The translations under genes and the position numbers were made by a program. From positions 1 through 64,000 of the forward strand of contig JAHHHH010000015.1 in the NCBI GenBank assembly GCA_019359415.1: 64,000 nucleotides of DNA, given 5' to 3'. This stretch comes from Iphinoe sp. HA4291-MV1. Lineage in GTDB: Bacteria; Cyanobacteriota; Cyanobacteriia; Cyanobacteriales; Nostocaceae. Shown piece by piece: positions 36,214 to 40,245 of the stretch. Each line of letters opens with the position of its first letter. The first letter of the stretch is position 1. A model generated the notes under the pieces. It had not been told where the DNA came from. It saw nothing but the letters and a program-made list of their open reading frames with translations, and searched no databases.

Positions 36214-36633
36214 TTATTCATTCAAAATTGTTTTTGAACTTTGATTGATACTCGCGGATGAATGTTTGATACTCGCGGATGAATGTTTGATACTCGCGGA
36301 TGAATGTTTGATACTCGCGGATGAACGTTTGATGCTCGTGGATGAATGTTTGATACTCGTGGGTGAATGTTTGATACTCGCGAATGAATGTTTGATGCTC
36401 GCGGATGAATGTTTGATACTCGTGGGTGAATGTTTGATACTCGTGGGTGAATGTTTGATACTCGTGGGTGAATGTTTGATACTCGTGGGTGAATGTTTGA
36501 TGCTCGCGGATGAATGTTTGATGCTCGCGAATGAATGTTTGATACTCGTGAATGAGTGTTTGATGCTCGCGAATGAATGTTTGATACTCGTGAATGAGTG
36601 TTTGATACTCGTGAATGAGTGTTTGATGCTCAT
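36214..36633 (-). CDS. Possible heptapeptide-repeat protein from the 21-bp minisatellite
   Basis: The frame from ATG 36633 reads MSIKHSFTSIKHSFT and continues as 18 SIKHSxx units plus a short tail. Because the repeat unit is 21 bp, other frames are open too, including the plus strand. In this frame the variable CAT/CAC and AGT/AGC bases are silent, while elsewhere they change residues, which slightly favours it. No ribosome site or promoter is clear. It may well be non-coding. Confidence 0.25.
   Translation of the reverse strand: MSIKHSFTSIKHSFTSIKHSFASIKHSFTSIKHSFASIKHSSASIKHSPTSIKHSPTSIKHSPTSIKHSPTSIKHSSASIKHSFASIKHSPTSIKHSSTSIKRSSASIKHSSASIKHSSASIKHSSASINQSSKTILNE
36253..36630. repeat. 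21-bp minisatellite, 18 copies
   Basis: The unit is close to TTTGATACTCGCGGATGAAT plus G. It varies at a few fixed positions (TACTC/TGCTC, CGCGGATG/CGTGGGTG/CGCGAATG). Variants are clustered in blocks, as expected from unequal duplication. Confidence 0.95.
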
Positions 36634-36677: not shown

Positions 36678-36788
36678 ATCTTGCACCAATGCCAAAAACC
36701 CGGTTTCTGGACGAGAAATCAAGGGTTACAGATTGTACGTTTTGTAAGAAACCGGGTTTTTTAAGTCTTATTGAGACTGGTGCAAGAT
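36678..36788. mobile_element. MITE-like element, 111 bp
   Basis: Perfect 11-bp ends ATCTTGCACCA / TGGTGCAAGAT enclose AAACCCGGTTTCT / AGAAACCGGGTTT, the same inner repeat as at 11564-11664. It ends one base before the stop codon of the calmodulin-Erv gene (36790). Confidence 0.65.
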
Positions 36789-36789
36789 G

Positions 36790-39174
36790 TCAGGTAATCT
36801 CTACGAACACACCACTGCGTGCAAATTCCTCCTCCTCAGGAGTGAAGTATGGAGCTTTATCCATAAGATCAGGATTGAAGTAGTATGTCTCTTGCAGAAA
36901 GTTTCCGCTGATAGCAGCCTCCTCTAAATCCTTGATGTAATCTTGCGCAACCATGCACGCCTCCTTAATGCCTTCCTCATCACCCTTGTCCAATAGCTTT
37001 TGTAATGTTGTTCTTACCCCTGCTAACCGTGATGCTGGTCTGAGTATGCCATAGAGGCGGTAGATGCAGTCAGTTGTAATGCTAATATGTTGAAGTGCTT
37101 TGGCTCGTGCCAGTTCAGAGTCAATGCTAGGCCAATAGCGGGTGGTATAGAATGCTTTCTCATCCTTATGATACCACTCCTCCGAGCGAGCAATGGAGGA
37201 GGAGACGGTGTTGTGGAGTTTCCAAAGGAATAGGCGAAGAGACGAACCATCCATCACAGTGGACAGCTTTGCATCCAGTGACACTTCAAAGTTAGTCAAG
37301 TTTATGTCACGTCCGAGCACAAGGTACTCTACTGGGTACATTTCCACCTCCTTATTCTGCACCACATACATATTGAGGTGATGACGACAGTAAGGGCAAG
37401 GGTACATGGTGGCAAACAGTTGGAAGAATTCCTTGAAGACTCGCACTAGCACTTTCTGTTGCTCAGGTGTCTTAGTACACACCATTTCAGCAGTCGTGTG
37501 GAAGAAGCGCCACACTGCAGGACCAATGTAGTATGGGAAGCTGACGCGCATCTGTGCATCTTTGATATCACTCCGCCCCATATACACATCAATGAATGCT
37601 ACATACTGTGATAGTGCACCTGACTCACGCCCAAACTCTGAGCGCTCGCGCCGTTTCTGTACACCATTGAGGTAATGGTGTGTGAGACGCCATGCTTGTT
37701 TGAGCATCAGTTTCTGTTTTAGGGTGCAGTTTGCAAAGCCCTCTGCAACGTCTGCCCCATAGCGGTTAAACTCTCCCAATGTCTTGGTGGACTCGTACCA
37801 CTTGTTCAAAGCTAGCTCATCAGGTACCGTGTTGCTCTGGATGTCTGCTTTTGTGCTCACACTGAAAGCAGCTAGAAGCTTCGGCATGAAATCCTCATAC
37901 CAATATGATACTGGCATCATCGCACCATCTACTTCCTCTGATGCACTTGTCAGGATGACACGATTCCACTTCTTCAGGTACTCCTTTGGATTTTCTTCTG
38001 ATTTGGCTGGTGGTGGAGCCAACTCCGCATTCAGCTCCATGTTCCTCAGTCGGTTGAGTTCGTTGATGGCAAGCACACCCTCAGCAATATCACGCAAGCT
38101 GAAACTTTTCTTCTTCAATGTAATCGCGAATTCGACTCCCGCAGCAAATTTCTGTTTGACAGTGGTAGACTTATTACGTGCCTCTAGCATCGATTTCTCT
38201 TCTGCTAACATCTCTGGTGTCTTTTCCACCGTCTTCCAGTTCTGAATGCGCTCCTCTAGTCGAACATACTCAGCCTCAATTGATTCAACTACGGCATCCA
38301 GTACGGGATTGCAAGCCGCTTCTACCACACCCAACCCTTTGTACAGCTCAATCGCCGTCTTTACAAACTGCACAAAGTCAGTGATTTTGTATGGTAGATT
38401 TCTCACGCGCAGATGAGTTTCGTGGTTGGCGGAGAAACTCTCGCGGAAGCAACGGTAGGCTGCTCCCTGAAGCAGACGAAACAAACCAATTTGCATCTGT
38501 AAGCGGGACGTACCACGCTGCTGTTCACTTTGTGGGTGTTGAGAAAGTAGTTGTTTTAGCTGCGCTACTTCTGAATCTACATCAGTAGATGTTTCCTGTG
38601 AAGTGAATTCAGTGGTTGCGGAATCTGGGCTGATGGTAGCTGTGTCATTTAAATCTGCGGTTGTTTCCAATGAACTGGCGCTTGCAATTGGTGAGTCTTG
38701 ATAGCCCGTTGTTATCTCTGACTCGTCGGGCATTAGTTGACAAAACTCCTTAAAGTCAATCGAAGCATCGCCATCGTGATCTACCTCTTTCACCATCTCA
38801 TCAAGTTCTTCATCCGTCAACCCAAACTTGCTCATCACAGTTCGCATCTCGTCTGCGGTGATCTCACCACTGCTGTTCTCATCAAACACACTAAATGCCA
38901 GCTTGAGGCGACTGTTGCGATCGCCTTGCTTGGACACCATCAGTGCTTTGAATTCCTCAAAGTCGATACTACCTGATAAGTCAACATCGACTTCCTTAAT
39001 CATGTCACGCAGTTCGGTGTCGCTAGGACTCTGTCCCAATGAACGCATGATCTGTCCTAGTTCCTCGGTTGAGATGGCTCCACTACCATCCTCATCAAAC
39101 ACTTTGAACGCTTCCCATAGCTTTTCTACTTGCTGCTCACTGAGCACAGTTTTTTCAAACTCTACAGTTGTCAT
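36790..39174 (-). CDS. Calmodulin-like four-EF-hand protein fused to an Erv1/ALR-type sulfhydryl oxidase domain
   Basis: In the 794-residue protein, residues 12-148 form two EF-hand pairs with loops at 27-38 (DEDGSGAISTEE), 63-74 (DVDLSGSIDFEE), 98-109 (DENSSGEITADE) and 132-143 (DHDGDASIDFKE). Loop 4 has Ala in place of the usual Gly6. Spacing and flanking helices (MRSLGQSPSDTELRDMIKEV) are very close to eukaryotic calmodulin. A polar linker (~150-225) and a long helical region (~225-545) of no known family follow. Residues ~551-680 match Erv/ALR: WRFFHTTA, YPCPYC (redox cysteines 593 and 596) and LHNTVSSS (FAD-site HNxV). Erv/ALR enzymes pass electrons from thiols to oxygen through FAD. No signal peptide is seen. 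The start is ATG 39174. HIP1 sites in the gene show it is resident. Calcium control is inferred. Confidence 0.8.
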   Translation of the reverse strand: MTTVEFEKTVLSEQQVEKLWEAFKVFDEDGSGAISTEELGQIMRSLGQSPSDTELRDMIKEVDVDLSGSIDFEEFKALMVSKQGDRNSRLKLAFSVFDENSSGEITADEMRTVMSKFGLTDEELDEMVKEVDHDGDASIDFKEFCQLMPDESEITTGYQDSPIASASSLETTADLNDTATISPDSATTEFTSQETSTDVDSEVAQLKQLLSQHPQSEQQRGTSRLQMQIGLFRLLQGAAYRCFRESFSANHETHLRVRNLPYKITDFVQFVKTAIELYKGLGVVEAACNPVLDAVVESIEAEYVRLEERIQNWKTVEKTPEMLAEEKSMLEARNKSTTVKQKFAAGVEFAITLKKKSFSLRDIAEGVLAINELNRLRNMELNAELAPPPAKSEENPKEYLKKWNRVILTSASEEVDGAMMPVSYWYEDFMPKLLAAFSVSTKADIQSNTVPDELALNKWYESTKTLGEFNRYGADVAEGFANCTLKQKLMLKQAWRLTHHYLNGVQKRRERSEFGRESGALSQYVAFIDVYMGRSDIKDAQMRVSFPYYIGPAVWRFFHTTAEMVCTKTPEQQKVLVRVFKEFFQLFATMYPCPYCRHHLNMYVVQNKEVEMYPVEYLVLGRDINLTNFEVSLDAKLSTVMDGSSLRLFLWKLHNTVSSSIARSEEWYHKDEKAFYTTRYWPSIDSELARAKALQHISITTDCIYRLYGILRPASRLAGVRTTLQKLLDKGDEEGIKEACMVAQDYIKDLEEAAISGNFLQETYYFNPDLMDKAPYFTPEEEEFARSGVFVEIT

Positions 39175-39426
39175 AACTAGCTCTCTTTTGAAATGTATTT
39201 CTGAAGGAATGTTCTGGGATTAGTATAAAACTCGTGAGCTTTCTTTAGGTTGCTGGCACTTTTAAAGATAATATTTCTTGTTTAAAACAGAGATTAGTGA
39301 AAAAAGTCAATACACAAAATTATCCTGCTTTCCCTGATTTTAGTAAAAGTTAACATTTCTATATTGATATCTACTATCATTGATATCTCTAAATTTTTCT
39401 ATACTATCGTCAAAATTCTCAAAATT

Positions 39427-40245
39427 TTAGAGAAAAGATTTCACCCTACGTTCCGTTACCAAAGTTAGGCTAACCCATTCGCCTTTATCGTTGTAGCTAC
39501 GAATCATCCGCTGGCGTAAATCCGCTTGAATGAGCCAACCAACCTCAAGAAAAAATGGTTGACGTAATTGTAGTTTAAGTGGAGACGTCGCAGAAGCACC
39601 ATCAGGAAAGAGTAGGACTTGTATCTGCTTGTGCGGATCTTGGTTGAAGTGGATGATAGAATCTTTAACAATCGCTGTTGAAGTGATTGTGCGCTCGCCA
39701 AAGGTTAAGCTTTGGGTTAATCGCCCTGCATTATCAAGTTGCAGCTGCATTTTGGTGGAGTCACTTTGGGAAGGACGCCAATCTGGATATATTGTCACTG
39801 CTTCACCCTGCCATTCTCCCAAAAGGTCATCCACTCTTAAAGGAGAACGTTGTACTGGTTGAGTTCCAGCCAGATGTTCTCGAATGACGGTAAGTTTGTT
39901 TAGCTGGAGGTTTTTGTCAAACAACTGAACGAGGCGTAAGCGACGATTTTCGTAAATTAAACCAAGTTCTGCCCCAAATTCAGAAAATGGACCAAGCTGG
40001 ATAGAGCCTTGAGAAAACGCCCCATTTTCAAAAAATAGCATACCGCGTCCAAAGGAAGAGTATTCAAAAACCTCTTCATTTTCCGCCAAGCGGAGAGTCA
40101 GGCGGATTGTTTGGTTGTTGTTCAACCCTTCCAAAGAAACTACGCTAGGAATATCCTCTAGAATTCCACCTTGAGGTGAGATTCGGGTAAATGAACCTTG
40201 CCATTCACCTAGGTTTTTCAGCAAAGCTTCCCACTGCGATCGCAT
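39427..40245 (-). CDS. DUF3598-family protein
   Basis: The 272-residue protein is typical of a cyanobacterial and algal family with a lipocalin-like beta-barrel, distantly related to CpcS/CpcT bilin lyases. The opening SQWEALLKNLGEWQGSF and the second-half repeat VDDLLGEWQGEAVTIYPDW mark the two barrel halves. The C-terminal GWLIQADLRQRMIRSYNDKG is also characteristic. The function is not established; a ligand-binding or chromophore-related role is only a guess. It starts at ATG 40245, 67 bp from the ftsX stop. Confidence 0.8.
   Translation of the reverse strand: MRSQWEALLKNLGEWQGSFTRISPQGGILEDIPSVVSLEGLNNNQTIRLTLRLAENEEVFEYSSFGRGMLFFENGAFSQGSIQLGPFSEFGAELGLIYENRRLRLVQLFDKNLQLNKLTVIREHLAGTQPVQRSPLRVDDLLGEWQGEAVTIYPDWRPSQSDSTKMQLQLDNAGRLTQSLTFGERTITSTAIVKDSIIHFNQDPHKQIQVLLFPDGASATSPLKLQLRQPFFLEVGWLIQADLRQRMIRSYNDKGEWVSLTLVTERRVKSFL

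Follow-up and report, generated by a model that had tools for sequence, protein, structure and literature searches.

The window analysed here, a stretch of 64,000 nucleotides from the filamentous cyanobacterium Iphinoe sp. HA4291-MV1 (contig JAHHHH010000015.1, positions 1 to 64,000), carries on its minus strand a gene for a protein in which an N-terminal calmodulin-like domain is joined, through a variable linker and a middle domain, to a C-terminal domain of the Erv/ALR type, that of the flavin adenine dinucleotide (FAD)-linked sulfhydryl oxidases (Table 1). An earlier note on this DNA had placed an open reading frame (ORF) at 36790..39174, the starts of four EF-hand loops at residues 27, 63, 98 and 132, and the candidate FAD-site residues W555, H559, C593, C596 and H654, and each of these positions was recovered exactly; the ORF encodes 794 residues. 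The fusion that it proposed is real as well, both end domains being assigned by curated Pfam profiles, namely EF-hand_7 (E value 1.7e-29), with EF-hand_1 matching in four stretches, and Evr1_Alr (PF04777; residues 553-610, E 2.8e-10, 40.9 bits against a cut-off of 27.6). The evidence for each of the two halves lies well above what chance would produce. No 19-residue segment of the protein exceeds 1.27 on the Kyte-Doolittle scale, so that no strongly hydrophobic segment is present, and no signal peptide was seen by eye.

The C-terminal domain is recognised by sequence searches, by its motifs and by its predicted helices. The Erv region alone retrieved 13 PDB chains at E<=1, all of them Erv/ALR proteins (best 2hj3, 7e-5), and a 25-row profile of the region retrieved 14, comprising 13 Erv/ALR chains (best 3.2e-6) and WDR24 (0.044). 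The motifs WxxxH, CxxC and HNxV follow one another in the Erv order, as the earlier note had stated, but its claim of Erv-like spacing stands for one interval only: histidine and CxxC lie 34 residues apart against 31 in Arabidopsis Erv1p, whereas CxxC and HNTV lie 58 residues apart against 29, which amounts to an insertion of about 29 residues. In the full structure model (mean predicted local distance difference test score, pLDDT, 71.0; predicted template modelling score, pTM, 0.65; 131 residues under 50), helices are predicted at residues 552-566, 570-590, 594-605 and 643-664 in the order of Erv proteins; the first carries W555 and H559, the third has C596 close to its start, and H654 falls in the fourth. 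When genome contigs were scanned with a 10-row alignment of the core, 106 relatives were obtained; the best 80 were used, and 48 of these 80 loci were aligned with the window protein after fragments and near-duplicates had been left out (identity to the window protein 39-92%). All 49 aligned proteins match Evr1_Alr (E<=0.01), and W555, R556, H559, C593, C596, R597, H599, H654, N655 and V657 are invariant among them. The same ten positions show no deviation in 58 proteins obtained through genome searches (the frames longer than 700 residues with the motif YPCPYC, out of 65 loci fetched), a set that overlaps the genomes of the 49 and in which the two cysteines of the motif are constant by selection; one of the 49 (L103) reads YACPYC. 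C288 is present in 43 of 49 and C483 in 41 of 49; the two were considered as an obligate second, or shuttle, pair and rejected because some rows have C288 but not C483 and others the reverse. A disulfide-forming enzyme is plausible from these sequence features.

The calmodulin-like domain shares 72 of 139 aligned residues (52%) with the calmodulin part of PDB 4il1, and each of its four loops has acceptable residues at positions 1, 3, 5 and 12, the positions on which our simple rule for a canonical loop is based. EF-hand_7 is matched by 46 of the 49 aligned proteins (E<=0.01), and canonical loops number four in 30 proteins, three in 4, two in 6, one in 5 and none in 4. Four-loop forms occur in the Nannocystaceae, in all but a few of the filamentous cyanobacteria and in some further cyanobacterial assemblies, and nearly all proteins of the window's own clade belong to them, while low counts are found in picocyanobacteria, Rhodobacterales and other proteobacteria. 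Within the clade that unites picocyanobacteria with Rhodobacterales, the domain is 21-30% identical to calmodulin (over shorter alignments), as against 27-46% in most rows from proteobacteria and 42-56% in those cyanobacterial and myxobacterial rows that fall outside the picocyanobacterial clade. No full-length homologue without the N-terminal region of about 200 residues was seen, the shorter frames being located at contig ends or interrupted. The most direct reading of these alignments is that the oxidase residues are indispensable and that calcium binding is lineage-specific; the tree, having no outgroup, is compatible with loss as well as with gain of loops.

The middle domain, put at about 320 residues without a known family in the earlier note, indeed gave no Pfam match at E<=5 in the window protein; its best match among PDB sequences had an E value of 0.24, and the core of the window protein had no NCBIfam match at E<=1. 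In other members it gives scattered weak matches to 14 Pfam families, the commonest in 8 of 25 proteins (best 0.00043, to a mechanosensitive-channel helix model), and these look like chance or composition. Its many invariant residues, charged ones among them, include Y424, E427, K507, R508, R509, E510, R511, E513 and R516. The helix-rich region of quiescin sulfhydryl oxidase (QSOX) is a degenerate Erv repeat; a similar origin was considered for the middle domain and rejected, as the domain shows no similarity to the Erv profile beyond 11 overlap columns that were built into both alignments. An NCBIfam model of a calcium-binding effector was matched at residues 17-218 (3.1e-16) with a score of 59.9 against a cut-off of 120, and therefore the protein is not assigned to that model. 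When the full model was compared with solved structures by Foldseek, 899 matches were obtained at E<=10, the best 50 of which were all calmodulin or calmodulin-like.

Table 1. Parts of the fusion gene and of the encoded protein, in positions of the window.
Feature	Residues	Positions	Strand	Remark
Whole gene	794 aa	36790..39174	minus	ATG start; stop codon at 36790-36792
Calmodulin-like domain	12-149	38728..39141	minus	Pfam and alignment to PDB 4il1
EF-hand loop 1	27-38	39061..39096	minus	DEDGSGAISTEE
EF-hand loop 2	63-74	38953..38988	minus	DVDLSGSIDFEE
EF-hand loop 3	98-109	38848..38883	minus	DENSSGEITADE
EF-hand loop 4	132-143	38746..38781	minus	DHDGDASIDFKE
Variable linker	153-217	38524..38718	minus	mostly low model confidence; highest dN/dS
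Middle domain, family unassigned	218-540 (323 residues)	37555..38523	minus	mostly helical; many invariant residues
Erv/ALR-type domain	545-664	37183..37542	minus	Pfam, PDB matches, predicted helices
WxxxH motif	W555 to H559	37498..37512	minus	
CxxC motif	C593 to C596	37387..37398	minus	sole cysteines common to 49/49 aligned proteins
HNTV motif	H654 to V657	37204..37215	minus	
C-terminal helical region	665-794	36793..37182	minus	

The ratio of non-synonymous to synonymous substitution rates (dN/dS) was estimated for each part of the gene between the window gene and five homologues. It amounts to 0.046-0.072 in the EF-hand part (computable in four of the five comparisons), 0.072-0.117 in the middle domain (one of the five not computable) and 0.025-0.083 in the Erv part, whereas the linker, at 0.176-0.569, has the highest value of the five parts in all five comparisons (with two other values not computable). 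Because dS exceeds 1 in most comparisons, the low values are rough, and only those for the nearest pair, with L042, are well measured (EF-hand part 0.063, middle domain 0.095, Erv part 0.083, linker 0.197). Sensor and enzyme are thus both under purifying selection, and the linker is less constrained.

Searches covered collections of bacteria, archaea, viruses and plasmids together with PDB sequences. With residues 220-794 as the query, 193 genomes of the same family yielded homologues in 36 (32 covering nearly the whole query, one of them with an internal stop, and 4 partial); homologues were also found in 2 of the 7 other genomes of the genus and in 11 of 292 genomes of a phylum-wide sample, two of the 11 being partial. 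The best 80 of the 106 relatives are, by title, mostly filamentous cyanobacteria, together with picocyanobacteria, Nannocystis, Enhygromyxa and alpha- and other proteobacterial assemblies. A 25-row core profile found the family in 5 of 144 genomes of the class of Nannocystis (the centre genome included), in 17 of 251 genomes of the family of a Prochlorococcus record (the centre included, two partial) and, within the class of a Rhodobacterales record (337 genomes), in the centre itself. PF04777 is matched in 8 of 244 cyanobacterial genomes, and since all eight carry the fusion gene, the family accounts for every cyanobacterial Erv domain in that sample, although picocyanobacterial members may escape the profile. 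No second PF04777 copy was found in the rest of the source genome, and none in 14 control genomes. The gene represents a real bacterial fusion family with a patchy distribution. A stop codon interrupts three of the four partial copies in the source organism's family (L011, L012 and matches in G398 and G404), and the gene seems to decay in some lineages.

A quick maximum-likelihood tree was built from the core (50 rows, 577 columns); in it, the Nannocystaceae and one proteobacterial clade of six rows fall among cyanobacterial sequences, and the Rhodobacterales join the picocyanobacteria. The root is arbitrary, support was computed only as the Shimodaira-Hasegawa-like approximate likelihood ratio test (SH-aLRT), 14 of 47 inner branches are weakly supported, the long branches are uncertain, and taxa are named as in the records, which include many metagenome bins; the placements suggest that the gene was transferred repeatedly between phyla. 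One record titled Klebsiella pneumoniae (L104) groups with proteobacterial metagenome assemblies, and its label is doubtful. Among viral contigs and phages no relative was found, and a single plasmid copy, annotated as an ERV1/ALR-related protein, lies on a 284-kb plasmid of Gemmobacter aquarius (L122:11476-13734); with no viral or phage relative and one plasmid carrier, a viral, phage or plasmid origin was rejected. Carbohydrate-related genes, among them those for glgX, an AGE-family epimerase and a sugar phosphate nucleotidyltransferase, form a run on one strand together with the Gemmobacter copy.

For a comparison of neighbouring genes, 81 loci (L042-L122) and 24 kb of the window supplied mechanically called ORFs of 90 residues or more, which were clustered; many flanks are short, and the overlap filter removed the gene itself, or the gene is interrupted, in L091, L095 and L108. 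A conserved operon or partner was considered and rejected, since no cluster but that of the gene itself extends beyond 10 loci. Five of the six members of one proteobacterial clade (L100, L101, L104, L107, L111) have a protein of 340-370 residues nearby (cluster 9), and four of these five also have cluster 17. Around the window gene, the upstream gene at 39427-40245 is kept in all seven other genomes of the genus, and in five of the seven congeneric loci similarity to the window ends at 39406-39450 although the locus continues, the remaining two (L156, L161) being uninformative because they end within about 35 bases of that point. In the two congeners that bear the fusion, similarity covers about 36796-39247, that is, the gene and about 70 bases upstream, short repeat matches aside. 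The fusion gene thus sits in other surroundings in these two genomes, which indicates a stand-alone gene beside a rearrangement point. Downstream of the gene, a tandem array at 36245-36631 (21-base unit, 18.4 copies, 92% matches), whose start is about 160 bases away, is crossed by long open frames on both strands, and an inverted repeat spotted by eye just downstream of the stop codon (AACCCGGTTTCT / AGAAACCGGGTT, about 36690-36762) could be a terminator or a dispersed repeat. A role as a defence gene was rejected, as PADLOC gave no match.

Several known systems resemble the protein in part. The Erv1/ALR sulfhydryl oxidases (PF04777; PDB 2hj3, 4e0h, 1jr8) share the order WxxxH, YPCxxC, HNxV and the predicted helix arrangement, and no other family has a curated profile that matches the C-terminal half of the window protein. 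The protein differs from them in its longer CxxC-HNxV interval, its lack of a second conserved cysteine pair, its bacterial source and its added calmodulin-like and middle domains. QSOX likewise links an Erv domain to others within one large multidomain protein, but no thioredoxin family is among the Pfam matches of the window protein at E<=1, and its middle domain shows no similarity to the Erv profile outside the built-in overlap. Calmodulin itself has the same four EF hands, spaced 36, 35 and 34 residues apart in the window protein, where the domain is instead part of a larger protein and its alignment contains two 2-residue gaps, one located in the central linker and the other between hands 3 and 4. 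CSE, described in passages of PMC7065334 as an EF-hand calcium sensor of filamentous cyanobacteria and the only known calcium sensor in Anabaena, is a short stand-alone protein with two EF hands. The source genome holds a separate CSE-like gene, a 77-residue ORF with two EF hands (L166:1495-1728), which is its only other EF-hand_7 match at E<=0.001.

Fusions of calmodulin-like EF hands with redox domains in cyanobacteria and other bacteria are treated in passages of Schaffer et al. (2020; PMC7016017), where unpublished cysteine-rich domains joined to cyanobacterial calmodulin homologues are also mentioned. The main text of that paper contains no words starting with thiol, sulfhydryl or Erv1, and its passages on cyanobacterial calmodulin-like fusions do not name the present one. 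PF04777 has been reported from Nostocales, and one public record names a member of the family as an ERV1/ALR-related protein, so the Erv domain is already known to databases. The earlier note knew of no described bacterial protein joining the two domains, and no description of an EF-hand/Erv fusion was found in the open-licence literature; so far as found, the family, its architecture and the constancy of the active site against the variability of the calcium loops are new.

The observed domain assignment, active-site conservation, pattern of loop conservation, purifying selection and absence of a strongly hydrophobic segment are read here, with a probability of roughly 0.55, as those of an Erv-type thiol oxidase that depends on FAD, is soluble and probably cytosolic, and has a calcium sensor built into it. 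The scheme that follows is inferred with respect to FAD binding, catalysis, substrate, electron acceptor and all effects of calcium. A protein dithiol in reduced form, or else a thioredoxin-like carrier, would dock on the middle helical domain and be oxidised by the C593-C596 disulfide; the electrons would then go to an FAD held by W555, H559, H654 and N655, which oxygen or some other acceptor could re-oxidise. In the branch of filamentous cyanobacteria and myxobacteria, calcium would bind to the calmodulin-like domain, which could clasp a helix of the core or the linker, and would alter activity or docking, so that calcium transients would raise or lower thiol oxidation. EF hands of the calmodulin type suit a calcium range of 0.2-4 uM. 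Passages of PMC7065334 and PMC4284465 describe a rise of cytosolic calcium in Anabaena, from about 0.2 to 4 uM, under stresses and at the transition from light to dark. An oxidase raised by calcium would suit the dark oxidation of thioredoxin-reduced enzymes.

A number of observations count against this reading. The Pfam match spans profile positions 2-57 of 93, and the half of the domain with HNTV aligns weakly, being recognised through motif and helix order without a significant alignment. The core model, from 25 sequences, has a mean pLDDT of 74.3 and a pTM of 0.80. The Gemmobacter plasmid protein, which belongs to neither the 49 nor the 58, has a cysteine in place of R556, so that the ten positions are not all absolute. 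No constant neighbour accompanies the gene, no cluster besides the gene itself occurring in more than 10 of the loci compared. Apart from CxxC, no cysteine pair is conserved in the 49 proteins, a lack shared by some viral Erv members; a substrate or carrier protein may accordingly meet CxxC directly, perhaps guided by the middle domain. According to passages of PMC3097184, Erv1 carries additional cysteine pairs that are essential for its function. Finally, part of the family has no canonical calcium loops though its active site is kept, and because several proteobacteria as well as picocyanobacteria retain such fusions, the family as a whole cannot depend on calcium. The calcium gating proposed in the earlier note is therefore weaker than stated: for the window's mostly four-loop clade it is a good hypothesis rather than a finding, and calcium control, if real, would lie mainly in filamentous cyanobacteria and myxobacteria.

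The same loop counts bear on a rival explanation, in which the protein is an Erv-type thiol oxidase whose EF-hand domain serves as a structural or docking platform, calcium merely stabilising it in some lineages without any switching. The 15 of 49 proteins with two or fewer canonical loops that nonetheless keep the domain and the ten active-site residues fit this explanation, as does the N-terminal region of about 200 residues in every full-length homologue seen, whatever its loops; the nearly uniform four-loop state of the window's clade and the purifying selection on the domain are, by contrast, hard to explain unless calcium binding matters, and the platform is considered somewhat unlikely. 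It is improbable that the middle domain is instead the catalytic centre, with the Erv-like CxxC/flavin site as its redox sensor or electron relay and not a general thiol oxidase: its many invariant and partly charged residues would suit a catalytic role but could equally serve folding or dimerisation, and neither an enzyme family nor a cofactor motif was found there in Pfam, PDB or NCBIfam.

Both end domains are better known from eukaryotes, and this, like the 52% identity to calmodulin, would fit a recent transfer of a eukaryotic fusion gene, if not a chance or assembly fusion. Such an origin is very improbable, as the same fusion occurs in many separate assemblies and several phyla, the parts of the gene hardly differ in guanine-cytosine (GC) content (46-48%, against 44% in the window), and homologues down to 39% overall identity are bacterial in the bacterial and archaeal genomes searched. 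The earlier note had also regarded HIP1 sites in the gene as a sign of long residence, any eukaryotic transfer being old; there is one exact octamer in the gene (38917) among 38 in the window, which neither supports nor contradicts long residence. A eukaryotic origin is not supported, given homologues in several bacterial phyla across the collections searched, and calmodulin is argued to derive from cyanobacteria or actinobacteria in a passage of PMC7016017.

A bolder form of the proposal, put forward tentatively, is that the protein may be the founding member of a bacterial family of calcium-switched cytosolic dithiol oxidases, in which calcium transients, for instance those at light-to-dark transitions, would directly turn on disulfide formation in target proteins via a new helical docking domain, the gene travelling among cyanobacteria, myxobacteria and proteobacteria and some lineages having kept the oxidase and dropped the switch. 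In 2011 Erv1 was regarded as an invention of eukaryotes (in a passage of PMC3097184), and a bacterial Erv family of distinct architecture under selection in several phyla bears on the origin of this enzyme class. The effectors of calcium signals in bacteria are poorly known, and calmodulin-like and oxidase domains on one chain make the question directly testable, with the natural variants with and without calcium loops as a ready comparison of possibly gated and ungated forms. If the proposal is true, bacteria would have a one-protein link from calcium signalling to thiol redox control.
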